Positions 1-18,579 of a stretch of 24,995 nt of DNA are shown piece by piece (position 1 is the stretch's first letter; each line of letters starts with the position of its first letter). The stretch is taken from assembly GCA_021204285.1 (NCBI GenBank), contig JAJPZP010000065.1, positions 1-24,995 on the forward strand, in the 5' to 3' direction. Both the position numbers and the translations under genes were made by a program. Origin of the DNA: Lachnospiraceae bacterium (GTDB taxonomy: Bacteria; Bacillota; Clostridia; Lachnospirales; Lachnospiraceae). A model generated the notes under the pieces. That model was not told the origin of the DNA. It did no database searches and saw only the letters and a list, made by a program, of their open reading frames with translations.

Positions 1-1
1 G

Positions 2-673: not shown

Positions 674-693
674 GGCTTTAAACAGGAATATCC

Positions 694-723
694 GGGCTGG
701 CGCTCTTTACCTGGCGCCAGCCC
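694..723 (+). terminator. Perfect 10-bp hairpin between the SPFH gene and argF
   Basis: GGGCTGGCGC (694-703) is exactly complementary to GCGCCAGCCC (714-723), with a 10-nt loop. The stem is very stable and sits 20 nt after the upstream stop. The following bases (gtctact) hold no real T run, so it may be a weak or factor-assisted terminator, or a 3' end stabiliser. Confidence 0.55.
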
Positions 724-751
724 GTCTACTATGCAGGAGGAAAGATAAGAG

Positions 752-1738
752 ATGGATTTAAAAGGAAGAAATTTTCTGAAGCTTTTGGACTACACGCCGG
801 AGGAGATTGCGTATCTCCTCGACCTTGCGGCTGAACTGAAGGAAAAGAAGAAGAAGGGTATCCCGATAGACACATTGCATGGAAGGAATGTGGCGCTGAT
901 CTTTGAAAAGACGAGTACACGGACCCGCTGTTCTTTTGAGGTGGCGGCACATGACCTTGGAATGGGGACGACCTATCTCGACCCGTCGGGTTCTCAGATC
1001 GGAAAGAAGGAGAGTATTGCGGACACGGCGCGTGTACTCGGAAGAATGTATGAGGGTATTGAGTACCGGGGATTCGGGCAGGAGATTGTGGAGGAGCTTG
1101 CGAAGTATGCGGGCGTTCCGGTCTGGAACGGCCTGACGAATGAGTTTCACCCGACGCAGATTCTCGCGGACATGCTGACAATTCGCGAGCATTTCGGTTC
1201 CCTGAATGTTAAGCTTGTCTACATGGGCGATGCCCGTTATAACATGGGAAATTCCTGGATGGTCGGTTGCGCGAAGATGGGTATGGACTTCACCGCCTGC
1301 GCACCGAAGAAGTACTGGCCGTCTCCGGAACTGATCGCGCAGTGCCAGGAGATTGCGAAGGGGACAGGGGCAAAGATATCCTTTGAGGAGGATGTAAAGA
1401 AGGCAACGAAAGACGTGGATGTGATCTACACGGACGTCTGGGTATCGATGGGTGAGCCGGACGAGGTCTGGGAGGAGCGTATCCGGGAGCTTTTCCCGTA
1501 TCAGGTGAACGCTGCAGTTATGAAAAACGCCGGCCCGCAGGCGATCTTCCTGCACTGCCTTCCGTCCTTTCACGATCTGGGCACGGGAATTGGCCGTCAG
1601 ATCAATGAAAAGTTTCAGATCGATGCGATGGAGGTGACCGACGAGGTCTTTGAGTCGTCTCAGTCGCTGGTCTTTGAAGAAGCGGAGAACCGCATGCACA
1701 CGATTAAGGCGGTCATGGCGGCTACATTGGGTGCTTAA
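752..1738 (+). CDS. argF: Ornithine carbamoyltransferase
   Basis: This 328-residue protein transfers the carbamoyl group of carbamoyl phosphate to ornithine, giving citrulline (arginine synthesis, or in reverse the arginine deiminase pathway). Visible motifs are the carbamoyl-phosphate loop STRTR at residues 55-59, HPTQ about residue 131, the ornithine-side loop VSMG about residue 230, and HCLPSFHD near the C-terminus (the family norm is HCLPAFHD). The SMG loop separates it from aspartate carbamoyltransferase. The length is normal for the family. ATG 752 has AGGAGG at 735-740. No other arginine gene is adjacent, so anabolic (argF) and catabolic (arcB) roles cannot be distinguished by context. 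Confidence 0.95.
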
Positions 1739-1756
1739 GGTCTGCGGAGCGCGGAT

Positions 1757-2026
1757 ATGAGATGGATTCTGGAAAAATATGAGAATATCTCCGTCTGGCT
1801 GAGCCTGTTCATCCTGGCTATGGCGGCAGTGGCGCTGACGGATGATACCTGGAGGCTTCGGAGCATGGCGCTGGCGTTCCTGGCGGGGACACTGCTGTTC
1901 GGACTTGGCGCGGCAAGAGGATGGCGGCTTGGCCACCGTCCGCAGGCTTTTGTGGAGATGGGGCTTACCGTCTGTACAGGTGCTGTGCTTGTGCTGCTTC
2001 TTTTGCATATGGGAGGATTTCTATGA
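1757..2026 (+). CDS. Small three-helix membrane protein of unknown function
   Basis: This 89-residue hydrophobic protein has three likely transmembrane segments at about residues 12-28, 36-53 and 69-87, with short charged loops (TDDTWRLR, RGWRLGHRP). It starts 18 nt after argF and its TGA overlaps the ATG of birA (ATGA at 2023-2026), so the two are translationally coupled. The ribosome binding site is weak (a GGAG at 1746-1749). No family is recognised. Coding status is supported by the coherent membrane pattern and the tight overlap, not by homology. Confidence 0.7.
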   Translation: MRWILEKYENISVWLSLFILAMAAVALTDDTWRLRSMALAFLAGTLLFGLGAARGWRLGHRPQAFVEMGLTVCTGAVLVLLLLHMGGFL

Positions 2027-3003
2027 GATCAGAACTGCTGAGGCTGTTGCGTCAGGCAGATGATTATGTCTCCGGGCAGCAGTTGTGCAGTCGTTTTGGC
2101 GTGTCCCGGACGGCTGTGTGGAAGGCGATTCGCCAGCTGCAGGAGGCGGGCTATGAGATTGACGCGGTGAACAATCGCGGATATCGTCTTCTGTCTGCGC
2201 CGAACCTGCTCACGGCAGATGAGATCAGAAGCCGTCTGTGTACCAGCTTTATGGGGCAGAACTGCATTTGCCTTAACAGCGTGGATTCCACGAATAATTA
2301 TGTCAAAAAGCTCGCGGAGGATGGAGCGGAGGAAGGAACGCTCGTACTCGCCGAGGAGCAGACCGGCGGCAAGGGACGCCGCGGACGCGCCTGGGCGACG
2401 CCGAAAGACAAAAATATCGCGATGTCGCTGTTGCTGCGTCCGAAGGTTCATCCGGCGCATGCTTCGCAGCTCACTCTGTTGATGGCGATGGCAGTCGGAA
2501 AGGCGATTCGCAGCTGCACCGGACTTGAAGCCGGGATCAAGTGGCCGAATGATATTGTTGTGAACGGTAGAAAGGTTTGCGGCATCCTGACGGAGATGAA
2601 CACCGAGGTGGATTATATCAATTATGTGGTCATCGGAACCGGTATCAATGTGAACCAGCGGGAGTTTTCCGGGGAGCTCAGCGGTATTGCAGGCTCTCTT
2701 TATCAGAATCTCGGGCAGGAGACGAGCCGGGCGGCGATCGTGGCGGCGAGCATGGACGAGCTGGAACGACTGTATGGAATTTTTCTGCAGACAGAAGATC
2801 TGTCTGCACTGAAGGATGAGTACAATCGGGTCTGTGTGAACTGCGGCCATGGAATTCGCGTTATGGAGCAGTCAGAGGCCTATACCGGGACGACGGAGGG
2901 AATCAATGGGCACGGAGAACTTGTCGTCCGGAAGGACAGCGGCGAGGAGGTACTCGTTTACGCGGGCGAGGTATCGGTAAGGGGACTCTACGGTTACACA
3001 TAG
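2023..3003 (+). CDS. birA: Bifunctional biotin-[acetyl-CoA-carboxylase] ligase / biotin operon repressor
   Basis: This is a 326-residue protein. It makes biotinyl-AMP and attaches biotin to the lysine of carboxylase carrier domains. The N-terminal helix-turn-helix is at about residues 4-57 (SGQQLCSRFGVSRTAVWKAI, then the wing NNRGYRLL), so it is the group II type that also represses biotin genes. The catalytic domain shows GGKGRRGR (115-122), the biotinyl-AMP loop, and KWPNDI (173-178) followed by GRKVCGILTE. A C-terminal SH3-like domain completes it. I chose ATG 2023, overlapping the upstream stop and preceded by GGGAGGA. The frame is open further upstream to 1921, but that region encodes the small membrane protein in another frame. 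Confidence 0.93.
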   Translation: MRSELLRLLRQADDYVSGQQLCSRFGVSRTAVWKAIRQLQEAGYEIDAVNNRGYRLLSAPNLLTADEIRSRLCTSFMGQNCICLNSVDSTNNYVKKLAEDGAEEGTLVLAEEQTGGKGRRGRAWATPKDKNIAMSLLLRPKVHPAHASQLTLLMAMAVGKAIRSCTGLEAGIKWPNDIVVNGRKVCGILTEMNTEVDYINYVVIGTGINVNQREFSGELSGIAGSLYQNLGQETSRAAIVAASMDELERLYGIFLQTEDLSALKDEYNRVCVNCGHGIRVMEQSEAYTGTTEGINGHGELVVRKDSGEEVLVYAGEVSVRGLYGYT

Positions 3004-3044
3004 CATCTGAAGATCGGAGAGCCTGGTGAAAGGAAGGAAAGTAG

Positions 3045-3377
3045 ATGTATCAGGAGCGTGTGACGCTCTGCGCGGCCAGTGCATACGAAAAAAAATATTA
3101 TCTGAATGAAGATTTTAAGGGACTTCCGCAGCAGATTCGCGATGAGCTGCAGATCATGTGCGTACTCTTTACGGAGGATGTGGGCGGTATCCTGACGCTT
3201 GTCTTTGATGAAGATGGCTCTCTGTTGCTGGAGGTGGAAGCGGATGAGGGTGATCTCCTCTACGACGATATTGGGAGCGAGCTGAAGATCCGGCAGATTA
3301 AGCGTGAGAAGAAGGAGCTTCTCCAGATTCTGGAGCTCTATTACAAAGTCTTTTTCGTCGGAGCGGATCTGGAATGA
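3045..3377 (+). CDS. Conserved hypothetical protein (possibly the DUF6145 family)
   Basis: This 110-residue soluble protein has alternating beta-rich (GGILTLVFDEDGSLLLEVEA) and helical C-terminal (IKREKKELLQILELYYKVFF) stretches. The start ATG 3045 follows AGGAAGG. Its TGA overlaps the dusB start (ATGA at 3374-3377), so the two are coupled. It resembles small proteins found beside dusB in Lachnospiraceae, and I recall DUF6145 as the family, with low certainty. No catalytic motif is visible and no function is proposed. Confidence 0.8.
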   Translation: MYQERVTLCAASAYEKKYYLNEDFKGLPQQIRDELQIMCVLFTEDVGGILTLVFDEDGSLLLEVEADEGDLLYDDIGSELKIRQIKREKKELLQILELYYKVFFVGADLE

Positions 3378-4336
3378 GAGGGGAACTTGCAATCGGCAAT
3401 GTGCGGCTTCCGAATAATCTGATTCTCGCACCGATGGCAGGCGTCACGGATCTGCCATTTCGCCTCCTCTGCAGGGAGCAGGGAGCAGGGCTGCTCTGCA
3501 TGGAGATGGTCAGTGCGAAGGCAATCTATTACCGGAACAAAAATACAGAGGCTTTGCTGACAGTTGACGAAAAAGAGCCACCGGTCTCACTGCAGCTCTT
3601 CGGCTCCGATCCGGATATCATGAGCGAGATGGCAAAACGCATCGAGGAGCGTCCGTTCTCGATTCTGGACATCAATATGGGCTGCCCGGTGCCGAAGGTT
3701 GTAAATAACGGCGAGGGCTCGGCTCTCATGAAAAATCCGAAGCTTGCCGGGGAGATCATTTCCCGGGTTGTACGTGCGATTAAAAAGCCGGTCACGGTGA
3801 AGATCCGCAAGGGCTTTGACGCGGCACATGAGAATGCAGTTGAGATTGCGCGGATCGCAGAAGATGCCGGAGCGGCGGCGGTCGCGGTACACGGCAGGAC
3901 ACGTGAGCAGTATTACAGCGGCAGGGCGGACTGGGAGATGATCCGCCGGGTGAAGGAGGCTGTGCATATTCCGGTTATCGGGAACGGCGACGTGGACTCG
4001 CCGGATGCGGCTCTGAAGATGCTCATGTCGACAGGCTGCGATGGAGTCATGATCGGCCGTGGCGCGCGCGGGAATCCCTGGATTTTTCATCAGATCCTGC
4101 ACCGGATGGAAACCGGGGAGGAGGAGAAAGCGCCGTCTTCCGCTGAGTTAAAGGAGATGATGCTGCGTCACGCGTGGATGCTTGCAGATTATAAGGGCGA
4201 ATATACAGGCATCCGGGAGATGCGCAAGCATGTTGCCTGGTACACAGCCGGTTATCCGAATTCCGCGAAGCTGCGTGCGCGTGTCAACGAGGCGGGGAGT
4301 CTCGAGGAGCTGGAGGAGCTGATTCGGGGGCTTTGA
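3374..4336 (+). CDS. dusB: tRNA-dihydrouridine synthase, DusB type
   Basis: This 320-residue FMN-dependent TIM-barrel enzyme reduces uridine in the tRNA D-loop to dihydrouridine. Seen in order are the FMN-binding N-terminus APMAGVTDLPFR, EMVSAKA, the catalytic-cysteine segment NMGCPVPKVVNNGEGSALM, VKIRKGF, AVHGRTREQYYSG, PVIGNGDV and the phosphate-binding GVMIGRGARGNPWIF. These match the DusB/NifR3 group. The length is typical. It starts inside the upstream stop (ATGA) and probably shares a transcript with the small hypothetical before it. Confidence 0.94.
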   Translation: MRGELAIGNVRLPNNLILAPMAGVTDLPFRLLCREQGAGLLCMEMVSAKAIYYRNKNTEALLTVDEKEPPVSLQLFGSDPDIMSEMAKRIEERPFSILDINMGCPVPKVVNNGEGSALMKNPKLAGEIISRVVRAIKKPVTVKIRKGFDAAHENAVEIARIAEDAGAAAVAVHGRTREQYYSGRADWEMIRRVKEAVHIPVIGNGDVDSPDAALKMLMSTGCDGVMIGRGARGNPWIFHQILHRMETGEEEKAPSSAELKEMMLRHAWMLADYKGEYTGIREMRKHVAWYTAGYPNSAKLRARVNEAGSLEELEELIRGL

Positions 4337-4419
4337 GTATGGTGTCATGTGCAGCGGATAGCGGCATAGGCAGTATTCAGGATCATATATATAAAAGAAA
4401 AATGATAAGGCGAAAGCCC

Positions 4420-4878
4420 ATGAATTTTTTCCGAAGATTATTCTTCCTGTGGAAAAAGGAGGAGCCCGAATCAGGGAAGGCGGATGATCTGCGGCGGACT
4501 TTTTTTGAGTACCGGGAGAAGGCGCCGGAGGTGCTGTGCTATCTTCGCCGTGAACGAAAAATCGCACGGCGTGATCTGGAACTGATCGTGATTGATAACG
4601 AGGAGGAGCCGGCCTGGCAGGTTTGTCACGTGCTTCAACGTCTGCTGCCGGAGATGAAGCTGCTGACGATTGTCACCGGACGGCAGGAGTATTTTTCCAG
4701 GCTGGCCCGGGATGCTTTTGAAGAATATGGCCTTCTCGTTGCCATGACTGCCGGGTATGGCGAAAAGCCGGCTGGAAATCTTGTGCTGGATCTGCGCGAC
4801 TGGGAAAAGCAGCTTACGATGCTTGGTGATATGAGCACGGAACAGCGCGTCGGAAAAGACCAGTTCAGCGAGGCGTGA
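4420..4878 (+). CDS. Hypothetical protein, 152 residues
   Basis: The frame runs to TGA at 4876-4878. I chose ATG 4420 because AAGG lies about 10 nt upstream and the product starts with a plausible amphipathic, basic N-terminus (MNFFRRLFFLWKK). ATG 4402 and the TTG overlapping dusB at 4333 are less likely. The middle (LELIVIDNEEEP, LLTIVTGRQEYFSRLA, NLVLDLRDWEK) reads like alternating strands and helices of a Rossmann-type fold. I recognise no family and no catalytic motif. It ends the housekeeping block just before a strong terminator. Confidence 0.75.
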   Translation: MNFFRRLFFLWKKEEPESGKADDLRRTFFEYREKAPEVLCYLRRERKIARRDLELIVIDNEEEPAWQVCHVLQRLLPEMKLLTIVTGRQEYFSRLARDAFEEYGLLVAMTAGYGEKPAGNLVLDLRDWEKQLTMLGDMSTEQRVGKDQFSEA

Positions 4879-4894
4879 GAAGCGACGTGTGGAA

Positions 4895-4937
4895 AAAGCC
4901 CCGGATCGGTTGATCTGCTCTGCCGGTCCGGGGTTTT
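4895..4937 (+). terminator. Strong intrinsic terminator
   Basis: An 11-bp stem pairs 4899-4909 (CCCCGGATCGG) with 4923-4933 (CCGGTCCGGGG), with one G-U pair and a 13-nt loop. It is preceded by an A run and followed by TTTT. It lies 20 nt after the stop at 4878 and isolates the downstream riboswitch promoter. Confidence 0.9.
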
Positions 4938-4963
4938 CCTGTGCTGTGAAAACAGGAAAGGAA

Positions 4964-4992
4964 TTGCAATTCCGGAGAGCTGATGCTATAGT
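4964..4992 (+). promoter_or_regulatory. Sigma-A-type promoter of the cobalamin block
   Basis: A -35-like TTGCAA (4964-4969) and a -10 TATAGT (4987-4992) are separated by exactly 17 bp. This places the transcription start near 4999-5001, right at the 5' edge of the cobalamin aptamer. It lies downstream of a terminator, so it is the only visible promoter for the block. Confidence 0.75.
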
Positions 4993-5000
4993 ATACGTTA

Positions 5001-5165
5001 ATCGCAGGTGTCGGCGGAGCGATTCGCCGGTGAAAAGGGAAACGGGTGAGAATCCCGCGCGAGACTCGTCACTGTATGCCGGGAGCGAGAGGCCAGATAC
5101 GCCACTGAGAGATTGGGAAGGCGGCCTCGATGTGATGATCGGCGAGCCAGGAGACCTGCCTGTGA
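5001..5165 (+). ncRNA. Cobalamin riboswitch aptamer
   Basis: The leader carries the hallmark blocks of the adenosylcobalamin-type aptamer in the right order: GCAGGT near 5004-5009 (P1 left side), CGCCGGTGAAAAGGGAA about 5035-5051, GGTGAGAATCCCGC, the CACTGT/GCCACTG core about 5081-5107, GGGAAGGC about 5114-5122, and the B12 box GCCAGGAGACCTGCC at 5146-5160. ACCTGC in the B12 box can pair with the 5' GCAGGT to close P1. Binding of B12 normally lowers expression of downstream biosynthesis and transport genes. It precedes an exported CbiK and the whole cobalamin block, a fitting target. Confidence 0.95.
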
Positions 5166-5240
5166 GGATGGGAGCGATGAGCTCCCCAGGCCACGAGTAA
5201 CTGGTCGCAAATGAAAAATTTCATTGCGTCCTCTTACGCC

Positions 5241-5276
5241 GTGCCCCCCAAAAACGGGAGGGCGCGTTTTAGTTTA
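5241..5276 (+). terminator. Terminator-like expression platform of the riboswitch
   Basis: GTGCCCCCC (5241-5249) pairs with GGAGGGCGC (5258-5266) with one C-A mismatch and a U-G pair, followed by TTTTAGTTTA (5267-5276). It lies between the aptamer and the CbiK ribosome binding site. Other possible hairpins upstream are GGGAGC/GCTCCC (5170-5186), an imperfect CGCAAATGAAA/TTTCATTGCG (5207-5228) and GCGT/ACGC (5226-5239). These could supply the anti-terminator, but I cannot determine the switch pairing by eye. Confidence 0.6.
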
Positions 5277-5309
5277 TGCCGAAAAGGCGAAAAAGAGGAG
5301 GAAAAGGAA

Positions 5310-6551
5310 ATGAAAAGGAAACTGGCAATGTTACTGGCGGGCGTCATGGTCTTCGGACTGCTGACGGGCTGCGGCAGCAGCACAACGACGGAGACGACGG
5401 AGGAGGTCGTCGAAGAGACGGAAGAGACCGAGGAAGCTGCAGAGGAAGAGGCCGCGGAGGAGACCGAAGAAGTCGACGCGGATCAGGCGGCCGCTGACGA
5501 GGTGGCGGCTCTGATCGACGCGATCTATGTACAGGAGTGGACCGAGGATACCGCAGATCAGTGCGCGGCGGCGAAGGCAGCCTGGGACGCACTGACCGAC
5601 GAGCAGAAGGAGCTGGTCGAGGGTGAGAACGCCGATCCGGATTACTTCGGAAGAGATACCGGCGACGCTTCCCTGGACGATGCGAGAAATCAGGATGATA
5701 TCGGAGAGAACGAGATTCTGGTTGTGAGCTTCGGTACTTCCTTCAATGACAGCCGTGTGACGGATATCAAGGGCATTGAGGATGCGCTGCAGGAGGCTTA
5801 TCCGGACTGGTCCGTGCGCAGAGCTTTCACGGCGCAGATTATCATCAACCACATCCTGGCGCGTGAGGGATATCAGATCGACAATATTGATCAGGCCCTG
5901 CAGCGCGCGGTCGACAATGGAGTGAAGAACCTTGTCGTACAGCCGACGCATCTGATGCACGGAGCGGAGTATGACGAGATGATGGAGGCGGTCGAGTCTT
6001 ACGCGGATCAGTTTGAGACGGTGTCCGTGGCGGAGCCGCTGCTCGGCGAGGTCGGTTCTGACGCGAGCGTGATCAATGAGGACAAGACCGCGGTTGCGGA
6101 GGCGGTTGTCGCCGCGGCGGTCGAGGATTCTGATTACGACAGCCTGGATGCGATGGCTGAGGACGGCACGGCGATTGTGCTGATGGGACATGGAACTTCC
6201 CATACCGCGAACGTGACCTATGACCAGATGCAGACGCAGATGGAGGAGCTCGGCTATGAGAATGTCTTCATCGGAACGGTAGAGGGCGAGCCGGAGGATA
6301 CGGAATGCTCGGTTGTAATTGAGAAGCTTGCGGAGGCAGGTTATACGAAGGTCATCCTTCGCCCGCTGATGGTGGTGGCCGGTGACCATGCGAACAACGA
6401 TATGGCCGGTGACGACGAGGATTCCTGGAAGAGCATGTTTGAGGCGTCCGGCAGCTTTGAAAGCATTGAGACGCAAATCGCGGGTCTTGGCCGCATCGAG
6501 GCAGTAGAGGCGCTCTATGTCGAGCACACGGCCGCGGCGATGGCGGAGTAA
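5310..6551 (+). CDS. cbiK: Exported lipoprotein sirohydrochlorin cobaltochelatase (CbiK type)
   Basis: This 413-residue protein comes first after the riboswitch. Residues 1-20 form a lipoprotein signal peptide with lipobox LTGC (Cys21). Residues 24-57 are an acidic Glu/Thr/Ala linker, and about 60-105 form a short helical module (AALIDAIY...AAWDALTDEQKELV) like those in Gram-positive surface proteins. From about 135 to the end is the chelatase domain: LVVSFGTSF, QPTHLMHG, MGHGTSH (His294), TVEGEP (Glu325) and VAGDHANNDMAGDDEDSWK (His360). The three metal ligands match the His-Glu-His set of Salmonella CbiK. The family inserts cobalt into sirohydrochlorin; a periplasmic CbiK is known in Desulfovibrio vulgaris. 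ATG 5310 is chosen because GAGGAGG lies upstream; ATG 5211 lacks a ribosome site and would bury the signal peptide. The odd point is an extracytoplasmic location for a normally cytoplasmic step. Confidence 0.92.
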   Translation: MKRKLAMLLAGVMVFGLLTGCGSSTTTETTEEVVEETEETEEAAEEEAAEETEEVDADQAAADEVAALIDAIYVQEWTEDTADQCAAAKAAWDALTDEQKELVEGENADPDYFGRDTGDASLDDARNQDDIGENEILVVSFGTSFNDSRVTDIKGIEDALQEAYPDWSVRRAFTAQIIINHILAREGYQIDNIDQALQRAVDNGVKNLVVQPTHLMHGAEYDEMMEAVESYADQFETVSVAEPLLGEVGSDASVINEDKTAVAEAVVAAAVEDSDYDSLDAMAEDGTAIVLMGHGTSHTANVTYDQMQTQMEELGYENVFIGTVEGEPEDTECSVVIEKLAEAGYTKVILRPLMVVAGDHANNDMAGDDEDSWKSMFEASGSFESIETQIAGLGRIEAVEALYVEHTAAAMAE

Positions 6552-6563
6552 GCCAGATGCAAG

Positions 6564-6600
6564 ATGCCGCAGAGTTCGCTGATGGCGGGCTCTGTGGCAT
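6564..6600 (+). repeat. Intercistronic 11-bp hairpin between cbiK and the next lipoprotein gene
   Basis: ATGCCGCAGAG (6564-6574) pairs with CTCTGTGGCAT (6590-6600) with a single G-U pair and a 15-nt loop. There is no T run after it, so read-through is expected. It could stabilise the cbiK mRNA end or tune expression of the downstream genes. The rest of the 124-nt gap shows nothing else clear. Confidence 0.5.
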
Positions 6601-6675
6601 ACGGATGGCCTGCACAGACGTGTGGACAACGGTTCTTTGCAGACGGAGATGCTGTAAGGACGGAGATGAGAATTT

Positions 6676-7287
6676 ATGAAAAGAGTGATTACTTTACTGG
6701 CTGCGTTTTTCCTCACAGCCGCGCTCTGCATCGGATGCGGCGGCAGCGCACAGGGAGAGAGCACGGCGGACACGGCCTCCGGGGAGGAGGTCGTGCCTGA
6801 CGAGGAATCCGGAGCAGCGGAGGAGAGCGTATCGGGTGAGGAATCCGCTGCGGAAGAAGAGACAGGGTCGGACGAAGTCGCCTCCGCGGAGGAGACGGCC
6901 GTCCAGGAAGCCGAACTGGAAGACGGCTTTTATCTGGCGGACTTTGACACGGACAGTTCGATGTTCCACGTCAATGAATCCTGCGACGGAAAGGGAACTC
7001 TGACGGTGGAGAATGGCGTGATGACGATCCATGTCTCGCTGGTGTCCAAAAACATTGTCAATCTCTATTATGGACTGGCGGAGGACGCACAGCAGGACGG
7101 CGCGGAGCTGATCGAGCCGACGCTCGACACCGTCACCTACAGCGATGGTTACACGGAGGAGGTCTACGGTTTTGACATTCCGGTACCGGCGCTGGATACG
7201 GAATACAATGTCGCGATCATCGGCACAAAAGACAACTGGTACGACCATACGGTCAGCGTGTCGAACCCTGAGATGCTGGTGGATTAA
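6676..7287 (+). CDS. Lipoprotein with acidic linker and NEAT-like beta domain
   Basis: This 203-residue exported protein has a signal peptide at residues 1-20 ending at Cys21 (ALCIGC, an imperfect lipobox because -3 is Cys). Residues 22-78 are an extremely acidic Glu/Ser/Ala linker. About 80-200 form a beta-rich domain opening DGFYLADFDTDSSMF, then GTLTVENGVMTIHVSL, YGFDIPVPALDTEY and WYDHTVSV. The order of these strands recalls NEAT (heme-binding, near-iron-transporter) domains, but the resemblance is by eye only. It sits in the riboswitch-controlled block between an exported chelatase and an ABC importer, which suggests a role in binding a metal or tetrapyrrole at the surface. GGACGGAG lies upstream of ATG 6676. 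Confidence 0.75.
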   Translation: MKRVITLLAAFFLTAALCIGCGGSAQGESTADTASGEEVVPDEESGAAEESVSGEESAAEEETGSDEVASAEETAVQEAELEDGFYLADFDTDSSMFHVNESCDGKGTLTVENGVMTIHVSLVSKNIVNLYYGLAEDAQQDGAELIEPTLDTVTYSDGYTEEVYGFDIPVPALDTEYNVAIIGTKDNWYDHTVSVSNPEMLVD

Positions 7288-7296
7288 TGTGATCAC

Positions 7297-7351
7297 GCGC
7301 CCCCGTTTTCGCGAAAAACGAAGCGGGGGCACTTTCCATACTCTGGAAAGT
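7297..7351 (+). repeat. Two tandem hairpins in the 188-nt gap before the membrane-anchored NEAT-like gene
   Basis: First hairpin: GCCCCCG (7299-7305) with CGGGGGC (7324-7330), enclosing the self-complementary TTTTCGCGAAAA. Second hairpin: ACTTTCC (7331-7337) with GGAAAGT (7345-7351), followed by caggctttt. The first starts 12 nt after the stop and may act as a partial terminator or an mRNA 3' end barrier, but the T run is poor. I see no clear promoter or second riboswitch in the remainder (7352-7475). Confidence 0.5.
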
Positions 7352-7475
7352 CAGGCTTTTAAAGCGGCTGCGAGTTTCCTCATCTGACGAGGAGAGGGGT
7401 GCGCAGCGCGAAAGAAAGCAGATCCTTCCTTATTACCTGTGCCGTCGTTTGAAGGATGGTGGAATGGAGATTGTC

Positions 7476-8018
7476 ATGACAAAGAGAAATTTTATATGGA
7501 TTCTGACAGCAGCATTTGCCATCCTTCTGGTGTGGACGCCGCTTACCGTCCGCGCGGAGGCGCCGGAAGCGGCCTGGATCGAGATGGAGGACGGTGAATA
7601 TGCGATCGATGTGGCGATGGAGGGTGGCAGCGGAAAGGTGACGATCAGCTCTCCGGCGATTCTGATCGTCGAGGACGGACGCGCCTACGCGCGCATTGAG
7701 TGGAGCAGTACCCATTATGACTATATGAAGGTCGGTGATGAGACCTATTATCCGATCAATGAAGATGGGGGTTATTCCACCTTCGAGATTCCGATCACGG
7801 TGTTCAATGAGGCGATGACGGTGATCGGCGATACAACGGCGATGAGTATGCCGCACGAGGTCGAATATACGCTCGTTTTTGAATCTGACTCGATCACTTC
7901 CAGGAGCCAGACGCCGCAGGCGGCAGCACAGAGGGTCGTCTATATGGCGATCGCGATCATCGCGGTCTGCGCGGTGGTTTCTATTATTAAGAAGAGAAGA
8001 GGGTATTCCGCAAAATGA
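7476..8018 (+). CDS. Secreted, C-terminally membrane-anchored NEAT-like protein
   Basis: This 180-residue protein has a Sec signal peptide (residues 1 to about 28, VWTPLTVRAEA), a beta-rich domain about residues 35-145, and a C-terminal transmembrane helix (VVYMAIAIIAVCAVVSII) followed by the basic tail KKRRGYSAK. Such tails hold proteins in the membrane with the domain outside. The domain shows DGEYAIDVAM, SPAILIVEDGRAYARIEW, YDYMKVGDETY, FEIPITVFNEAM and MPHEVEYTLVF. This strand order and the Tyr-rich spots recall NEAT heme-binding domains; a database profile search is needed. ATG 7476 follows GGAG at 7466-7469, and ATG 7464 (with AAGGA upstream) is an equally possible start. Its TGA overlaps the next start (ATGA at 8015), coupling it to the binding lipoprotein. 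Confidence 0.8.
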   Translation: MTKRNFIWILTAAFAILLVWTPLTVRAEAPEAAWIEMEDGEYAIDVAMEGGSGKVTISSPAILIVEDGRAYARIEWSSTHYDYMKVGDETYYPINEDGGYSTFEIPITVFNEAMTVIGDTTAMSMPHEVEYTLVFESDSITSRSQTPQAAAQRVVYMAIAIIAVCAVVSIIKKRRGYSAK

Positions 8019-9166
8019 GAAAGAGATGGATGGCAGCGGTTCTCCTGCTGACTGCGGCACTTGCGCTGGCGCTTACAGCCTGCGGCTCGTCTGCGGAAAC
8101 GTCTTCGGCCGCGCGGGATACCGATATCAGCGAAGAGCTGGTTTATACGGAGAGTATGGAACTCTCCTGTGCGGAAGAATTTTCCGTGGATTACTATGAA
8201 AATGGTTTCGCGCTGATCACGATCGCGGACAGTGCCCGCTATCTGCTCGTCCCGGAGGGGGAGAGCGCTCCGGAAGATCTCGACGGGGAAATCGTGATTT
8301 TACAGCAGCCGATGGAAAATATATATCTTGTGGCTTCGGCCGTGATGGATATGTTCGTCTCCATGGACGCGCTGGACGCGATTCGCTTCAGCGGCACACA
8401 GGCGGATGGCTGGTACATCGAGGAGGCGAAGACCGCGATGGAAAATGGGGATATTCTCTATGCGGGCAAATATTCCGCACCGGATTATGAGCAGATTCTT
8501 GCGGAGAACTGCGGCCTTGCGATCGAGAATACGATGATCTATCACGCGCCGGAGGTAGAAGAGCAGCTGGAGAAATTCGGCATTCCGGTGCTTGTCGACT
8601 ATTCGAGCTATGAGGCGGAGCCGCTTGGTCGGACCGAGTGGGTAAAACTCTACGGTCTGCTGGTCGGCGAGGAAGAGGCCGCGGAAGAGGCCTTCGCGGC
8701 GGAGATCGACGAGTTCGCGACCGTGGCGGATGCGGAGCAGACGGGGCTGACAGTTGCCTTCTTCTACATTACGACGAACGGAGAGGCGAATGTCCGGCAA
8801 TCCAGCGACTATCTGCCGAAGATGATCGAGCTGGCGGGCGGCACCTATATTTTCGAAGATCTCGGCGACGAGGATACGGCCTCCTCGACCGTGACGATGA
8901 CGATGGAGGAGTTCTACGCGGGGGCGAAGGACGCTGACTATATTATCTATAACAGCACGATCGACGGGGAGCTCACGTCGGTCGATGAGCTGCTGGGCAA
9001 GAGCTCGCTTCTCGGCAATTTCAGTGCCGTACAGAGCGGAAATGTTTACTGCACGTCGAAGAATCTTTACCAGTCTTCAATGGAGCTTGGTACGATTACC
9101 GCGGATATCCACCGGATGCTGACCGGGGAGGATGAGGAACTTACTTACCTGTATAAACTGGAGTAA
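8015..9166 (+). CDS. ABC importer substrate-binding lipoprotein (BtuF/FecB/FhuD-like)
   Basis: This 383-residue lipoprotein has lipobox LTAC at Cys23. The two-lobed class III binding-protein features are visible: VDYYENGFALITIADSARYLLVPEG, a central DGWYIEEAKTAMENGDILYAGKYSAPDYEQIL with AENCGLAIENTMIYHAPEVEEQLEKFGIPVLVDYSSYE, then WVKLYGLLVG, SSDYLPKMIELAGGTYIFED and MEEFYAGAKDADYIIYN. This matches the BtuF/FhuD family, which delivers corrinoids, heme or ferric siderophores to FecCD permeases. Permease and ATPase genes follow directly. B12-riboswitch control favours a corrinoid, cobalt complex or related tetrapyrrole as ligand, but the exact ligand cannot be read from sequence. Confidence 0.9.
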   Translation: MRKRWMAAVLLLTAALALALTACGSSAETSSAARDTDISEELVYTESMELSCAEEFSVDYYENGFALITIADSARYLLVPEGESAPEDLDGEIVILQQPMENIYLVASAVMDMFVSMDALDAIRFSGTQADGWYIEEAKTAMENGDILYAGKYSAPDYEQILAENCGLAIENTMIYHAPEVEEQLEKFGIPVLVDYSSYEAEPLGRTEWVKLYGLLVGEEEAAEEAFAAEIDEFATVADAEQTGLTVAFFYITTNGEANVRQSSDYLPKMIELAGGTYIFEDLGDEDTASSTVTMTMEEFYAGAKDADYIIYNSTIDGELTSVDELLGKSSLLGNFSAVQSGNVYCTSKNLYQSSMELGTITADIHRMLTGEDEELTYLYKLE

Positions 9167-9170
9167 AGGG

Positions 9171-10181
9171 ATGAAGAATAGAAGATACTGTCTCGCATTT
9201 CTTATACTGGCCGCATTGCTGCTCGTGCTTCTGGCGGTGAACGTCTGCATCGGCAGCGTGGGGATCCCCTTCGCGGAGGTGCTGCGCATTCTGACCGGGC
9301 ATGGCGCAGATGTGACCTATGCTGATATTGTCATGCAGATCCGGCTGCCGCGTGCACTGGCAGCGGCGATCCTCGGTGGAGCGTTGGCGCTGTCAGGTTA
9401 TCTTCTGCAGACCTTTTTCCATAACCCGATTGCGGGACCCTATATTCTCGGTATTTCGTCGGGGGCAAAGCTGGTCGTCGCGCTCGTGATGGTTTTTGCC
9501 CTGGGACAGGCGGTTGTTGTGAACTCAGGAGTGATGATTATCGCGGCATTTATCGGCTCCATGATTTCGATGGGTTTTGTGATTCTGATGTCGCGCTATA
9601 TGGAGCAGATGTCGATGCTGATCGTGAGCGGCGTCATGATCGGTTATATCTGTTCGGCGATCACGGAATTTGTTGTAACCTTTGCAGATGATGCGAATAT
9701 CGTGAATCTGCACAGCTGGTCACAGGGAAGCTTCTCCGGTATTTCCTGGAACAATGTGGCCGTGATGTCGGTCGTCACTTTCCTTGCATTTGCCGTAGTG
9801 TTTCTGATGTCGAAGCCGATTATGGCATATCAGATGGGCGAGTCCTACGCGAAAAATATGGGGCTTAACATCCCACTGTTCCGCGTGCTGCTGGTGCTGC
9901 TTTCCAGCATTTTGTCAGCCTGTGTGACCGCGTTTGCGGGTCCGGTTTCCTTCGTCGGCATTGCGGTGCCGCATCTGGTGAAAAGCCTTTTTAAGAGCTC
10001 GAAGCCGCTGCTTCTGATTCCTGCGTGCTTTCTCGGTGGCGCTTCCTTCTGTCTGTTCTGCGACCTGCTCGCACGGACGCTGTTTGCGCCGACAGAGCTC
10101 TCGATCAGTACGGTAACCGCGGTTTTCGGCGCGCCGGTTGTGATCTATATCATGGTAAGGCGCAGAAAGGAGCGGACGTAA
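9171..10181 (+). CDS. FecCD/BtuC-family ABC permease
   Basis: This 336-residue multi-spanning membrane protein fits the FecCD family (usually about 330 residues and ten helices). Landmarks are IRLPRALAAAILGGALALSGYLLQTFFHNPIAGPYILGISSGA near the N-terminus, LHSWSQGSFSGISW in the middle, and the cytoplasmic coupling region FAGPVSFVGIAVPHLVKSLF near the C-terminus, which contacts the ATPase. It transports the ligand passed on by the lipoprotein encoded 4 nt upstream. ATG 9171 follows GGAG at 9160-9163; an in-frame ATG at 9132 lies inside the upstream gene and would add residues before the first helix. Confidence 0.94.
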   Translation: MKNRRYCLAFLILAALLLVLLAVNVCIGSVGIPFAEVLRILTGHGADVTYADIVMQIRLPRALAAAILGGALALSGYLLQTFFHNPIAGPYILGISSGAKLVVALVMVFALGQAVVVNSGVMIIAAFIGSMISMGFVILMSRYMEQMSMLIVSGVMIGYICSAITEFVVTFADDANIVNLHSWSQGSFSGISWNNVAVMSVVTFLAFAVVFLMSKPIMAYQMGESYAKNMGLNIPLFRVLLVLLSSILSACVTAFAGPVSFVGIAVPHLVKSLFKSSKPLLLIPACFLGGASFCLFCDLLARTLFAPTELSISTVTAVFGAPVVIYIMVRRRKERT

Positions 10182-10185
10182 GCGG

Positions 10186-11400
10186 ATGAGTATTGAGAAC
10201 TTATCGGAGGTTTCGTCCGATTTTGGCAAAGATGCAGAAGAAAGAGCAGCGCAGGTTGTTCCCGGCGGAAACGCGTACCCGTCGTGCGAAACACGTGAAG
10301 AAACGGATATGCTGTACTTTCGGACAGAAGGACTGACAGTCGGCTACAACGGCGTCCCGCTGATCCGGGACATCGAGCTCTCGATGAAGCGTGGAGAGAT
10401 CCTGACACTGATCGGGCCGAACGGGGCCGGAAAGACTACGATATTAAAAAATATCATAAGACAGCTCGAACCGATCGGCGGGACGGTGTTCCTCGACGGG
10501 AGGAAGCTTCCGGAACTCTCCGGGCACGAGCTCTCGACGCAGATGTCGGTTGTGCTGACCGAGCGGGTGAAGCCGGAACTCATGAGCTGTGAGGATGTCG
10601 TAGCCACCGGACGCTATCCCTATACCGGGAGGTTCGGCGTGCTCTCGGAGGAGGATCACCGCATCGTGCGGGAGTCGATGGAACTTGTCCATATTTCGGA
10701 GCTTAAGGAACGCGATTTTTCCGAGACGAGCGACGGGCAGAAGCAGCGCGTCATGCTGGCGCGGGCGCTCTGCCCGCAGCCGGATATTCTTGTGCTCGAC
10801 GAGCCGACTTCCTTTCTCGATATCCGCTACAAGCTGGAGTTCCTCGCGATCATTCAGGAAATGTCGCGGAAGAGAGGCCTTTCGGTTATCATGTCGCTGC
10901 ATGAGCTTGATCTGGCGGGACGGATTTCGGATAAGCTGGCCTGTATCCGTGGAGATAAGGTGGACCGCTTCGGCACGCCGGAGGAGATCTTTACGGAGGG
11001 CTATATCCAGGAACTTTACCAGATGACAGTCGGTTCCTATGATGAGCGGACCGGCAATCTGGAGCTGACGCCCGTGAAGGGGGATCCGGAGGTCTTCGTG
11101 ATCGCCGGGAACGACCACGGCACGGACTGTTACCGCAGCCTGCAGCGGCGCGGCATTCCCTTTGCGACGGGCATCCTCTGGGAGAATGATCTCGATTTCC
11201 CGACGGCGCATGCGCTGGCGGCAGAGCTGGTCAGCGTGCCGGCGTTTCACGAAATCTCCACAGAAGAGCTGAGACGCGCGAAGGAGATTATGGATCGCTG
11301 TGGGCACGTGATCTGTACCCTGGATGAGAATGCGTATCTGCCGGATGCGCTGCAGGAGCTGATCGCCTACGCAGAGAGTAAAAAATATATTGAGATATAA
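10186..11400 (+). CDS. ABC importer ATPase (FepC/BtuD-like) with an unusual C-terminal domain
   Basis: This 404-residue protein is about 150 longer than typical FepC/BtuD subunits (about 250). The ABC core runs from about residue 43 to 270, with Walker [10 protein letters not shown] (77-85), a signature reading TSDGQ (181-185, where SGGQ or SGGE is usual), Walker B ILVLDEP (201-207) and the H-loop histidine in SLHE (239). Residues 300-404 form an extra soluble domain ([40 protein letters not shown], then a helical end) that I cannot assign. The first 42 residues before the core are also extra. ATG 10186 has AGGAGCGG upstream, 4 nt after the permease stop; ATG 10309 would give a conventional N-terminus but has a weak ribosome site. 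It powers import with the preceding permease. Confidence 0.9.
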
Positions 11401-11413
11401 GGAGAGTGTACAC

Positions 11414-12112
11414 ATGGCAGGAAAAATCTATGGTATCGGGGTGGGACCGGGAGACCCGGAGCTTCTGACTCTGAAGGCAAAGAAGATACTGGACGCGGCG
11501 GACGTGATCGCCGTCCCGGTCAAGGAGGCGGGCGAGTACAGTACGGCGCTGGAGATCATCCGCCCGGTCGTTGATCTGGATGGAAAGGAGATCGTCGAGG
11601 TTGTCTTCCGCATGCTGCGGGACGAGGAGGAGCGCAGGAAATGTCGTGCCGCGGCCTGCGAGCAACTGGCGGACCTGCTGCGCGGCGGCAAGGATATCGC
11701 GATGATTACCCTTGGAGATGTATCGGTCTACAGTACCTATATGTATGTAAATAACTACCTTGCAGAAGCCGGATTTGAGACGGAGATCATCCCCGGCATT
11801 CCGTCCTTCTGCAGCGGGGCAGCGAAGGCGCAGCTCGCGCTTATGGAGGGCAACGAAGGCCTGGCGATCGTGCCTTCGGCGAAGGAAAACCTGCTTGTGG
11901 ACGCCGCGCTCGATCATTTTGAAAATATTGTCGTCATGAAGGCCGGCGGCAGCATTGAGAAACTGATCGGAAAGCTGAAAGCACGCGATATTCCGCTTTC
12001 TGCGGCGACCGTCTTAAGCTGCATCGGCATGGAAAATGAATATATCGGACCGCTTGATCCGAAGCGTGAGTACAGTTATTTCACCACGGTTATCATCAAG
12101 AAGGGGGAGTAG
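11414..12112 (+). CDS. cbiL: Cobalt-factor II (precorrin-2) C20-methyltransferase
   Basis: This 232-residue tetrapyrrole methylase transfers a methyl group from S-adenosylmethionine to C20 of cobalt-sirohydrochlorin (cobalt-factor II), the first ring methylation after cobalt insertion. The N-terminal SAM loop [18 protein letters not shown] (residues 9-26), [18 protein letters not shown] and [11 protein letters not shown] match the CbiL/CobI group. The anaerobic name is preferred because cbiK lies in the same block. ATG 11414 follows GGAG at 11401-11404; the in-frame ATG at 11390 lies inside the ATPase gene. It begins 13 nt after the importer ATPase. Confidence 0.93.
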
Positions 12113-12118
12113 AAAGTC

Positions 12119-12874
12119 ATGGTATCATTTATCGGAGCGGGGCCGGGCGATCCGGAGCTCCTGACGATCAAGGGAAAGAAGATTATCGACAGCGCGGATG
12201 TGATCATCTACGCCGGCTCACTTGTCAATCCGCAGGTGCTCGCGGACGCAAAGGAGGGCGCTGTCATATATAACAGCGCGACGATGAACTTAGACGAGGT
12301 GATCGACGTCATGAAGGAGGCAGAGGAGAAGGGTCTCAAGGTGGCGCGTGTGCACACCGGTGATCCGGCGATCTATGGCGCGCACCGGGAGCAGATGGAC
12401 CGGCTCGACGAGCTGGGCATCGACTATGAGGTGATTCCGGGTGTGAGTTCCTTCCTTGCGACCGCGGCGGTGCTGAAAAAGGAGTATACGCTGCCGGGCG
12501 TCAGCCAGACGGTCATTCTGACCCGGATGGAGGGCAGAACGCCGATGCCGCCGAAAGAGAAGCTGCTCGACCTCGCGCAGCACAACGCGACGATGATCAT
12601 TTTCCTGAGCGTCGGCATGCTGGACGAAATGTCGGCGATTCTGCGTCAGGCCTATCGCGATACCACACCGGTGGCGGTCGTCTACAAGGCGACCTGGGAA
12701 GATCAGAAGATCGTGTACGGCGATCTCACGAATATCGCGGAGCGCGTGCGTGAGGCGGGCATCCGCAAGACCGCTCTCACAGTCGTGGGTGATTTCCTTG
12801 GGGATGAGTATGAGCTCTCGAAGCTCTATGACAAGACTTTTACTACAGAATTCCGAAAAGGAGTGACGGACTGA
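12119..12874 (+). CDS. cbiF: Cobalt-precorrin-4 C11-methyltransferase
   Basis: This 251-residue SAM-dependent methylase methylates C11 of cobalt-precorrin-4. Motifs are the N-terminal [18 protein letters not shown] (residues 6-23), YAGSLVNPQVL, HTGDPAIYGAHREQ (79-92), the long conserved PGVSSFLATAAVLKKEYTLP, and LTRMEGRTPMPPKEKL. These are characteristic of the CbiF/CobM subgroup. Length is typical. It starts 6 nt after cbiL and its TGA shares an A with the hemA ATG at 12874, so all three are probably co-translated. Confidence 0.95.
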   Translation: MVSFIGAGPGDPELLTIKGKKIIDSADVIIYAGSLVNPQVLADAKEGAVIYNSATMNLDEVIDVMKEAEEKGLKVARVHTGDPAIYGAHREQMDRLDELGIDYEVIPGVSSFLATAAVLKKEYTLPGVSQTVILTRMEGRTPMPPKEKLLDLAQHNATMIIFLSVGMLDEMSAILRQAYRDTTPVAVVYKATWEDQKIVYGDLTNIAERVREAGIRKTALTVVGDFLGDEYELSKLYDKTFTTEFRKGVTD

Positions 12875-14055
12875 TGGGTATCACACTGATCAGCATCAGC
12901 CATCAGGCGGCGCCGCTCTCCATCCGGGAGATGTTCGCATTTCCGGAGGAGCAGCAGGGCGAACTGATGAAGCAGATGATCGGGAAGGGCATTGCGGATG
13001 AATGCGTGATCATCAGCACCTGCAACCGGACCGAAGTCTATACATATTCAGAATGTGCGGACAGTAATTTTGCCGAAATGCAGGAACTGCTGCTTGCCTT
13101 TGCAAACGCGGAGAATGTGGAACACATGGGCGATTATATTCGCCTTTACAGTGGGACAAAAGCAATTCGTCACCTGTTCCGCGTGACCGCAGGACTGGAC
13201 TCGATGGTGATGGGAGAGGACCAGATTCTCGGTCAGGTGAAACGCGCGCACGAGTTCGCGCATGAGACGGGAAGCTGCGGCGTGTATCTGAATACGCTGT
13301 TCCGCTATGCGGTGACGGCAGCGAAGAAGGTGAAGACGGAGACAGACCTCTCCCGCACGACGGTGTCGACGGCGACGATGGCGATCAAAGCGGCGGAGCA
13401 GACCTTCGGCTCCCTGCACGGGAAAAAGGTCATGCTGATCGGCGCCTCCGGTAAGATCGGCAGCACGGTGCTCAAGAATCTGCAGTGCATCGAGGGCGCG
13501 AGTGTGTACATCACTGCCCGGAATATGGGTCAGGCAACAGCGGATCCACACCATAAGATCAGTTATCAGATGATGGATTATGAGAAGCGCTATGAGCTTG
13601 TGGATGAGATGGACGTGATTGTCAGCGCGACAACAAGCCCTCACTATACGCTCACTTATGATAAGCTGGCGAAATGTCTCGTGACGGAAAAGCCGCGGGT
13701 CTTTGTCGATCTGGCGGTGCCGATTGATATCGATGCGCGAGTGGAAAAGCTGCCCGGTGTAAAGCGCTACGATATCGACGACTTCCGTGAGCTGGCAGCC
13801 GTAAATAATGAGAAGAAACAGCATGAGGCGTTCGAGGCGGAGCAGATGCTCGAGGAATCGCGCAAGGATTTCGAGCGCTGGATGATCTTCCAGCAGGGGC
13901 TGCCGAAGATTGCGAAGACGAAGGAATGGATGCTGCGCGAGGCGGAGAAGAAGGGCTTCGAGCGGGCGATCGACAAGATGTTCTACCGGTTGAGGGACAA
14001 CTCTGAGCCGGAGGAGCTGCAGGCTTTCCTTGAACATCTGGGGAGCGCGGAGTGA
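12874..14055 (+). CDS. hemA: Glutamyl-tRNA reductase
   Basis: This 393-residue enzyme reduces glutamyl-tRNA(Glu) to glutamate-1-semialdehyde, the first committed step of the C5 route to 5-aminolevulinate. The catalytic cysteine is in ISTCNRTEVY (Cys50). MGEDQILGQVKRAH (112-125) is the conserved catalytic-domain segment. The NADPH-binding domain has GASGKIGS (190-197), a slight variant of the usual glycine loop. The C-terminal helical dimerisation domain is present. HemL and HemB, needed next, are not in this window. It is embedded between two corrin methyltransferase genes, so its level rises when B12 is scarce and precursor supply follows corrin demand. Confidence 0.95.
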   Translation: MGITLISISHQAAPLSIREMFAFPEEQQGELMKQMIGKGIADECVIISTCNRTEVYTYSECADSNFAEMQELLLAFANAENVEHMGDYIRLYSGTKAIRHLFRVTAGLDSMVMGEDQILGQVKRAHEFAHETGSCGVYLNTLFRYAVTAAKKVKTETDLSRTTVSTATMAIKAAEQTFGSLHGKKVMLIGASGKIGSTVLKNLQCIEGASVYITARNMGQATADPHHKISYQMMDYEKRYELVDEMDVIVSATTSPHYTLTYDKLAKCLVTEKPRVFVDLAVPIDIDARVEKLPGVKRYDIDDFRELAAVNNEKKQHEAFEAEQMLEESRKDFERWMIFQQGLPKIAKTKEWMLREAEKKGFERAIDKMFYRLRDNSEPEELQAFLEHLGSAE

Positions 14056-14129
14056 AGGGCTGTATTTTGGATGTGATAAAAAGCATGTGGCGGGAAATGT
14101 AGAAAAGACAGGAAGGACAGGAAATTTTT

Positions 14130-14867
14130 ATGGGGAAATTATACGTGGTTGGCTTCGGCCCGGGCGGGAAGGAGCACATGACGCAGAAGGCGATCGACGT
14201 GATCACAAAGGCGGATGTCGTGACCGGTTACACCACTTACGTCAGGATTCTGAAGGAATATTTTCCGGATAAAACCTATATTGCGACGCCGATGATGCAG
14301 GAAGTGAAGCGCTGTGAGATGGCGGTTGAGGAGGTGATGAAAGACCAGACGGTCGTGATGGTCTCCAGCGGCGACAGCGGGATCTACGGCATGGCCGGCA
14401 TCATTTATCAGGTGGCGGATGAGAAGCAGGCCGATATCGAGATCGAGACCGTGCCGGGCGTGACCGCGGCCAGCGCGGCGGCCTCTGTTCTGGGTGCACC
14501 GCTGATGCACGACTTCGCGGTGATTTCCTTAAGCGACCTGATGACGCCGCTCGAACTCATCATGAAACGCGTGGATTGTGCAGGCCAGGGAGATCTGATC
14601 GTCTGCCTCTACAATCCGAAGAGTAAAAAGCGAACGGGTTATGTGGAGCAGGCCGCGGATATTCTGATGAAATACCGCTCTGCTGAGACGCCGGTCGGCA
14701 TCGTGCGGAATGCGGGCAGGAACGATGAATCTTCCTGCATCACGACGCTCGGAGAGCTGAAAAATGCAGAAATTGACATGTTCAGCGTCGTCATTATCGG
14801 AAATTCCCAGACCTACACAAAGAACGGGAGAATGATCACGCCGAGGGGCTACGCAGTGAAGCAGTGA
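14130..14867 (+). CDS. cbiH: Cobalt-precorrin-3 (precorrin-3B) C17-methyltransferase
   Basis: This 245-residue tetrapyrrole methylase carries out C17 methylation with ring contraction in the anaerobic corrin pathway. SAM motif GFGPGGKEHMTQKAI (residues 8-22), GYTTYVRIL, VVMVSSGDSGIYGMAG (75-90), PGVTAASAAASVLGAPLMHDFAVISLSDLMTP and LYNPKSKKR are diagnostic of CbiH/CobJ. Length matches CbiH alone, so it is not fused to a CbiG domain. GACAGGAAGGACAGGAAA lies upstream of ATG 14130. The 74-nt gap after hemA shows no clear signal. Confidence 0.95.
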   Translation: MGKLYVVGFGPGGKEHMTQKAIDVITKADVVTGYTTYVRILKEYFPDKTYIATPMMQEVKRCEMAVEEVMKDQTVVMVSSGDSGIYGMAGIIYQVADEKQADIEIETVPGVTAASAAASVLGAPLMHDFAVISLSDLMTPLELIMKRVDCAGQGDLIVCLYNPKSKKRTGYVEQAADILMKYRSAETPVGIVRNAGRNDESSCITTLGELKNAEIDMFSVVIIGNSQTYTKNGRMITPRGYAVKQ

Positions 14868-14890
14868 GCCGCGTGGCGCAGGGAGGAATT

Positions 14891-18393: not shown

Positions 18394-18410
18394 ACCGTTA
18401 TTTTCTTTTT

Positions 18411-18437
18411 GCGCAGTATTCAAACTGCGCATTTTTA
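18411..18437 (+). terminator. Intrinsic terminator closing the cobalamin block
   Basis: GCGCAGT (18411-18417) pairs with ACTGCGC (18424-18430) with a 6-nt loop, followed by ATTTTTAT. It lies 18 nt after the cobD stop and separates the cobalamin block from the sugar operon. Confidence 0.85.
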
Positions 18438-18512
18438 TCAATCCTGTCAATTTGAACAAAAACGTTGTGCAATTTGCAAAAAAAATCAACAGAAATTTCA
18501 GTAAAAACGCCG

Positions 18513-18526
18513 AAAAAACGTTTTTT
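18513..18526 (+). promoter_or_regulatory. LacI-family-type operator, upstream copy
   Basis: A 14-bp perfect palindrome AAAAAACGTTTTTT is centred on CG at 18519/18520, just upstream of the -35 box. CG-centred palindromes are typical of LacI/GalR regulators. A weaker CG-centred site (AAAAACGTTG) lies further up at about 18457-18469. Confidence 0.55.
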
Positions 18527-18538
18527 TGAAAAAATGAA

Positions 18539-18568
18539 TTGACAGAAAGCATAAAAAGGGTATAGAAT
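18539..18568 (+). promoter_or_regulatory. Sigma-A-type promoter of the sugar operon
   Basis: A perfect -35 TTGACA (18539-18544) is followed by TATAGAAT (18561-18568). TATAGA gives a 16-bp spacer and TAGAAT an 18-bp spacer. The box sits in an AT-rich 180-nt stretch between the cobD terminator and the ATPase gene and lies between two palindromes. Confidence 0.8.
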
Positions 18569-18579
18569 TCAAATTACAG

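Follow-up and report, generated by a model that had tools for sequence, protein, structure and literature searches.

Why should a bacterium keep a chelatase of the CbiK type outside the cell, behind a cobalamin riboswitch and in line with surface domains, an importer and corrin genes? The question is raised by a stretch of DNA from a Lachnospiraceae bacterium (GCA_021204285.1, contig JAJPZP010000065.1, forward strand 1..24,995), whose whole length of 24,995 nt is called the window in what follows. On one strand, a riboswitch precedes genes for an exported CbiK, a lipoprotein with a domain here named B, a membrane-anchored protein with a domain named C, a BtuF-like lipoprotein, a FecCD permease and an ATPase, and then a run of corrin genes (Table 1). 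An original prediction on this DNA had listed the same elements, with cbiL directly after the ATPase, and matches in Rfam, Pfam and NCBIfam bear it out. The module is real, conserved between genomes and rewired time and again, and would, as we propose below, acquire an early corrin precursor.

Conservation was evaluated in 120 genomes of one family, one per genus, the window's own included. CbiK was found in 69 of them, and every listed CbiK place except the window's own was fetched, resulting in 87 loci, 37 with an exported and 50 with a cytosolic enzyme, as assigned by reading the N-termini by eye rather than with a signal-peptide program. Domains B and/or C lie nearby in 35 of the 37 exported-CbiK loci and in none of the 50 cytosolic ones, figures by which a chance association of exported CbiK with these domains is rejected. 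Similarly, 34 of 38 exported CbiK genes, two of which share a locus, have a B12 box (at most 2 mismatches) in the 900 nt preceding them, but only 2 of the 50 cytosolic genes do. The components are also joined in various ways, as CbiK-B (8 genes), CbiK-B-C (2), C-BtuF (5), B-C-BtuF (2) and B-BtuF (1) fusions, along with B-C.

Domain B leads to the same loci. Of 572 relatives among at least 592 pattern matches listed from named records, the best 80 are accompanied by CbiK in 76 cases, C in 75, BtuF in 73, FecCD and the ATPase in 72 each and a B12 box in 70, some of these loci being clipped by contig ends. The riboswitch was confirmed with the Rfam model in all seven named-record loci tested (L134, L153, L166, L170, L188, L193 and L197), and the matches listed include records titled Roseburia hominis, Coprococcus catus, Eubacterium ramulus and Blautia luti. 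The original prediction was to be given up if these genes were not conserved together elsewhere; they are, both around exported CbiK and around domain B.

The CbiK domain of the exported protein is recognized with 241.5 bits, while the protein misses the NCBIfam equivalog cut-off (NF047852, 188.5 of 400 bits). Its nearest chains in the PDB are 9b86, the P. gingivalis FetB (140 bits), which we take to be the same protein as IhtB, followed by the CbiK 1qgo (130) and the chelatase 2xvx (115). Residues E88, H162 and H228 (domain numbering), presumably the metal site with its ligands, are conserved in 39 of 39 exported copies. In a tree of the 87 rows kept, those with fewer than about 200 aligned residues having been dropped from both tree and residue alignment, the exported label requires 2 changes, compared to a mean of 28.9 after shuffling, and the exported copies fall into one group of 11 rows and another of 28, both adjoining a signal-less CbiK, with a bootstrap that had not settled.

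Two rearrangements of CbiK may be mentioned here. One genome, G085, features a tandem (L033, 5473-9412), in which a B12 box and CbiK are followed by a second B12 box and a CbiK-B fusion. Cytosolic CbiK, on its side, forms a fusion with an ABC ATPase that is probably CbiO, while other copies have CbiH, a HemC-like part or CbiL as their partner (L061, L062, L064, L065; also L063, L060, L050). These fusions are the reverse of the arrangement studied here, with chelation perhaps coupled to cobalt import inside the cell.

For domain C, structural modelling predicts a NEAT fold, in keeping with the NEAT-like call of the original prediction for this protein; the solved structures nearest to the model are mostly heme proteins, and the NEAT entries it matches are tetrapyrrole binders. 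At the sequence level the window's domain does not reach the Pfam NEAT gathering score (16.9 of 32.8 bits; 31.6 in the best relative), and at E 0.01 Pfam NEAT is found in 9 of the 52 members of the C alignment. YxxxY is the usual heme motif: such a Y-x-x-x-Y string occurs in only 2 of 114 C domains, 102 of which carry PHE..Y instead. Domain B, suspected to be NEAT-like, occurs in relatives as a fusion with CbiK or C, and one relative features a weak NEAT match over its B region; the pattern for lipoprotein B fits 8000 of the 8000 candidates scored, several among the matches listed having a NEAT domain. Sequence searches of the PDB with the C alignment, the B alignment and one fused relative returned nothing significant, the best hit for C being a NEAT chain, 3sik, at E 0.094. 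A profile comparison matching B to C with 100% probability was discarded as an artefact, because the same fused proteins sit in both alignments. Several genomes also contain open reading frames of about 900 to 1800 codons with multiple B/C-like matches (G085:C1:2650941-2652185, G101:C7, G107:C248, G066:C2 and G019:C104), which may encode large surface proteins that serve the same ligand route.

The importer combines Peripla_BP_2, FecCD and an ABC ATPase, the set found in the corrinoid importer BtuFCD. It stays tied to the corrin step even where the exported chelatase is gone. In G003 its ATPase forms a fusion with CbiD, and in G065 with a cobyric-acid-synthase-like CbiA/GATase_3 protein (L046 10135-12087; L042 9853-12189), and three of the four CbiD-positive genomes with no CbiK match retain the importer. 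In G109 it lies inside a corrin cluster, preceded by a riboswitch of its own, and in G077 it is found beside corrin genes and a C domain, its permease being nested in the module clade; both lack CbiK. G002, which has a complete trunk, carries importer and B-C protein on a short contig ending where CbiK is expected, and in the fetched stretch of G031 only the corrin cluster is seen. In G006 the importer adjoins a cytosolic CbiK-CbiL fusion. The corrin genes of G031, G077 and G109 (L225-L228) come with no match to CbiK, HemC, CobA or CbiL, and these bacteria may import a ring already loaded with cobalt.

Genome distribution links the module to corrin synthesis. All 38 genomes with an exported CbiK contain CbiD, as opposed to 33 of the other 82 (Fisher p 8.6e-12, genomes treated as independent), and 45 of the 47 genomes with a B/C-type match are CbiD-positive, the matches in the remaining two being marginal (E 5.6e-4 and 6.1e-4). 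The 71 CbiD-positive genomes fall into four classes, with exported CbiK only (23 genomes), both types (15), cytosolic CbiK only (29) or neither (4). In this order, CbiN was detected in 0, 3, 19 and 0 genomes, HemB in 5, 11, 18 and 1, HemC in 7, 15, 28 and 1 (a weak match of 28 bits in G006 being counted as present), CobA in 8, 15, 28 and 1, and CbiL in 12, 13, 29 and 0 (including two borderline matches, in genomes 007 and 051, of 162.5 and 163.0 bits against a cut-off of 163.25). HemB, HemC and CobA, the early trunk of the pathway, are all absent in 15, 0, 1 and 3 genomes, an association between exported-only CbiK and trunk absence with p 1.2e-6 on the same assumption. Genome searches found no separate CbiX other than a weak match in G069, the PF01903 search recovering mostly CbiK, as judged by comparing positions with the CbiK places by eye; in 23 genomes, exported CbiK is the only CbiK/CbiX-type chelatase detected. 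G105, taken to be Roseburia hominis An869, has lost HemB, HemC and CbiL and retains a CobA fusion. SirC was left out of the final tabulation, since its PF13241 profile matches many other proteins and is hit in 120 of 120 genomes; by strong matches only (E below about 1e-20), and with the window's genome set aside, it is absent from 14 of 22 exported-only genomes. Of the 71 CbiD-positive genomes, 16 have HemC but not HemB and resemble porphobilinogen salvagers, 14 of them with a cytosolic CbiK.

The 15 trunkless exported-only genomes retain CbiD, CbiF, CbiH, CbiJ, CbiE and CbiT in every case, CbiG in 14, CbiA in 13 and CbiC in 9, as labelled by profiles seeded from the window and from L046 in fetched stretches, outside which the gaps may lie. 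Provided that the completeness estimates of the assemblies hold, loss of HemB, HemC and CobA with retention of the later cbi genes makes import of a tetrapyrrole near-necessary, and the retained set implies that the ring needed has reached the methylation state of precorrin-2 or a later one, but is not past CbiH. Genomes that kept CbiL would fit sirohydrochlorin or its cobalt form as the ligand, judging from gene content, and those that lost it factor III or its cobalt form, unless another enzyme substitutes. On a permease tree of 33 rows the trunkless label changes 8 times, 4 of them forced by well-supported branches, so that trunk loss seems to have occurred repeatedly.

From these observations we infer that the module would be a B12-repressed system for the acquisition of an early corrin precursor. 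Exported CbiK would put cobalt into an isobacteriochlorin-type tetrapyrrole (sirohydrochlorin/factor II, perhaps factor III) at the outer face of the membrane, the NEAT-type domains would hold the metallated ring and then pass it onward, and the BtuF-like lipoprotein, permease and ATPase would import it, so that it could be used in the anaerobic corrin pathway from CbiL, or from the point immediately following CbiL, onward. The module would, in many relatives, take the place of cytosolic CbiK and of CbiMN as the importer of cobalt, and often also of the entire trunk to precorrin-2. Import of an early corrin-pathway ring appears quite probable from gene content. The combined reading, in which cobalt would be inserted externally, NEAT-type domains would hold the ring and the importer would deliver it to the cbi pathway, with chelatase and NEAT domains acting in either order, we consider probable; as to the insertion of cobalt by CbiK on the outer face prior to import, we lean towards it. 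The original prediction had suggested capture outside and metallation or hand-over at the surface, followed by import into corrin synthesis, and co-location, the strict tie to CbiD and the trunkless genomes support it; the ligand and external metallation are what we infer.

Several observations weigh against this proposal. The window's own genome has HemA, HemB and the HemC-CobA-HemD fusion, along with two SirC-like fragments located where contigs end; with the early trunk present, salvage is not required there. Neither cytosolic CbiK nor CbiN was detected in this genome, which is 88.5% complete, so that a cytosolic CbiK could have been missed. CbiL is absent from 11 of the 23 exported-only genomes, where the ligand may thus be factor III or later, or CbiL be replaced by another enzyme. 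Exported and cytosolic CbiK occur together in 15 genomes; one cytosolic-only genome (051) also lacks HemB, HemC and CobA; CbiM-family matches, one of them below the cut-off, are found in 6 exported-only genomes. CbiN is missing from all 23, CobN, NiCoT and CorA lying outside the search. Finally, both Fisher p-values ignore shared descent. In the window's organism the module may scavenge rings. It is doubtful, but conceivable, that sirohydrochlorin made by the cell itself is secreted as a "cobaltophore", loaded by surface CbiK, bound by the NEAT-type domains and brought back in, where CbiL would use it directly; if so, a single cycle would serve both to capture the metal and to build the cofactor, and the truncated relatives would be cheaters, importing rings released by others.

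The module could also serve to acquire cobalt only, CbiK and the NEAT-type domains capturing the metal or a chelate, the importer moving cobalt, and the ring coming by some other route. The distribution of CbiN (0 of 23 exported-only versus 19 of 29 cytosolic-only genomes) looks as though the module did the job of CbiMN, and B12 riboswitches control many cobalt transporters, according to the available part of a published account (PMC7689651). Such a role, however, leaves the missing ring of the 15 trunkless genomes unexplained and would keep their sole detected CbiK/CbiX-type chelatase outside, and the NEAT entries matched are binders of tetrapyrroles; we regard it as improbable. Uptake of finished corrinoids (B12, cobinamide), in which CbiK would play an accessory part, is suggested by the riboswitch and by the top NCBIfam models for permease and ATPase, BtuC and the PRK09536 corrinoid ATPase, yet both equivalog cut-offs are missed (211.7 of 334 and 206.9 of 537 bits). 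Carriers devoid of CbiD would be expected in that case, and among the 49 CbiD-negative genomes, in which the permease itself was not searched, exported CbiK was found in none and B/C in the two marginal cases only; the ATPase-CbiD fusion and the placement of the importer within corrin clusters likewise speak against this role, which we judge unlikely.

Acquisition of heme or iron, as proposed for the P. gingivalis Iht system, with CbiK stripping iron from heme, is the least likely of these alternatives, and very improbable in our view. It would agree with the modelled NEAT fold and its heme-protein neighbors, and with FetB as the chain nearest to CbiK; it would account neither for the B12 riboswitch nor for the presence of CbiD in 38 of 38 carriers, and the C domains, with PHE..Y in place of Y-x-x-x-Y, do not feature the expected motif. 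The acquisition of an early corrin precursor is the reading we prefer.

Positions of the individual features are collected in Table 1. A consensus scan of positions 4700-11500 found promoter-like sites at chance level (4, with 3.9 expected) and 9 terminator-like sites (4.0 expected); on the + strand, none of the latter lies between the riboswitch and position 7955, and all those from 7955 onward are intragenic, which indicates no break in the operon. Upstream of the riboswitch, an open reading frame at 4333-4878 has no Pfam or NCBIfam match. The downstream region (18609-24994) is an unrelated sugar locus, with an ABC sugar-type importer, RbsD/FucU, an FGGY kinase and a 442-aa protein (22739-24067) with no Pfam match.

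Table 1. Features identified in the window, with nucleotide positions
Feature	Position	Strand	Remarks
Cobalamin riboswitch RF00174, full length	4989..5177	+	105.6 bits, E 8e-26; passes the RF00174 gathering score
Exported CbiK-type chelatase	5310..6551	+	Lipobox-like signal, acidic linker, further N-terminal stretch, then CbiK domain
Lipoprotein with domain B, suspected NEAT-like	6676..7287	+	No significant Pfam match
Membrane-anchored protein, domain C (predicted NEAT fold) and C-terminal helix	7476..8018	+	Fold by structure model
BtuF-like substrate-binding lipoprotein	8015..9166	+	Peripla_BP_2 (E 3.7e-27); C-BtuF fusions in relatives
FecCD permease	9132..10181	+	Top NCBIfam model BtuC, below cut-off
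Importer ATPase with C-terminal extension	10186..11400 (alternative internal start 10309)	+	Top NCBIfam model PRK09536 corrinoid ATPase, below cut-off
cbiL	11390..12112 (likely start 11414)	+	TIGR01467, 208.8 bits (cut-off 163.25)
cbiF	12119..12874	+	TIGR01465, 339.6 bits (cut-off 259.65)
hemA, glutamyl-tRNA reductase	12874..14055	+	
Tetrapyrrole methylase, presumably CbiH-like	14130..14867	+	Pfam TP_methylase only
hemC-cobA-hemD fusion	14864..17335	+	TIGR01469, 292.7 bits
Aminotransferase, presumably CobD-like	17332..18393	+	Pfam Aminotran_1_2

The original prediction knew of no description of this combined system, and none was found in the open-licence literature searched, where no paper joining NEAT domains with cobalamin riboswitches or a cobaltochelatase came up, and corrinoids and NEAT domains met only in unrelated S-layer work. 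As far as this literature shows, the parts are known, while their combination and the function proposed for it are new. If that function is correct, a cofactor pathway would be divided across the cell surface, with the metal inserted outside, and gut communities would exchange early corrin rings besides finished cobamides.

Compared to cytosolic CbiK with CbiMNQO, the module shares the chelatase family, the residues and the association with the anaerobic corrin pathway, but its chelatase is exported, and the two distributions are largely complementary. Desulfovibrio vulgaris likewise has a CbiK located outside the cytoplasm, 2xvx, in addition to a second CbiK, and NEAT domains are not known there. 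From NEAT-based heme uptake (Isd, IsdX1, Hbp2) the module differs in a domain C below the Pfam cut-off, in the ligand motif, in the exported chelatase and in the B12 riboswitch. The closest parallel is the P. gingivalis Iht/FetB system, which likewise has a CbiK-like lipoprotein, IhtB, beside a binding protein, a permease and an ATPase (PMC10913741, in the part available). A 2026 review, in the excerpt available, describes FetB as a chelatase placing manganese into protoporphyrin, the product accumulating on the outer membrane (PMC13402209). That system is Gram-negative, includes a TonB receptor and is regarded as a heme/iron system, NEAT domains being unmentioned in the accessible passages of these sources, whereas the module lies behind a B12 riboswitch, includes NEAT-type domains and runs on into corrin genes, with no TonB-dependent receptor among its genes scanned. 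P. gingivalis is also reported to lack the steps to precorrin-2 (PMC6461909, in part). Our results suggest re-examining Iht as an importer of corrin precursors.

The genome pattern of the module's relatives is, finally, that of the "tetrapyrrole precursor salvagers" of Shelton et al. (2018), bacteria with corrin genes and no early trunk, predicted for years, whose precursor is either acquired from outside or produced through a novel pathway (PMC6461909); a precorrin-2 class is listed in another study (PMC8123684, in the excerpt available). The window's genome, with HemA, HemB, HemC and CobA, does not belong to this class, into which 15 of the 23 relatives with exported CbiK as their sole CbiK do fit. 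That work defines the phenotype and, in its available portion, names no import system; the module is a candidate for this route, and a concrete and widespread one, in bacteria which finish B12 without starting the ring.

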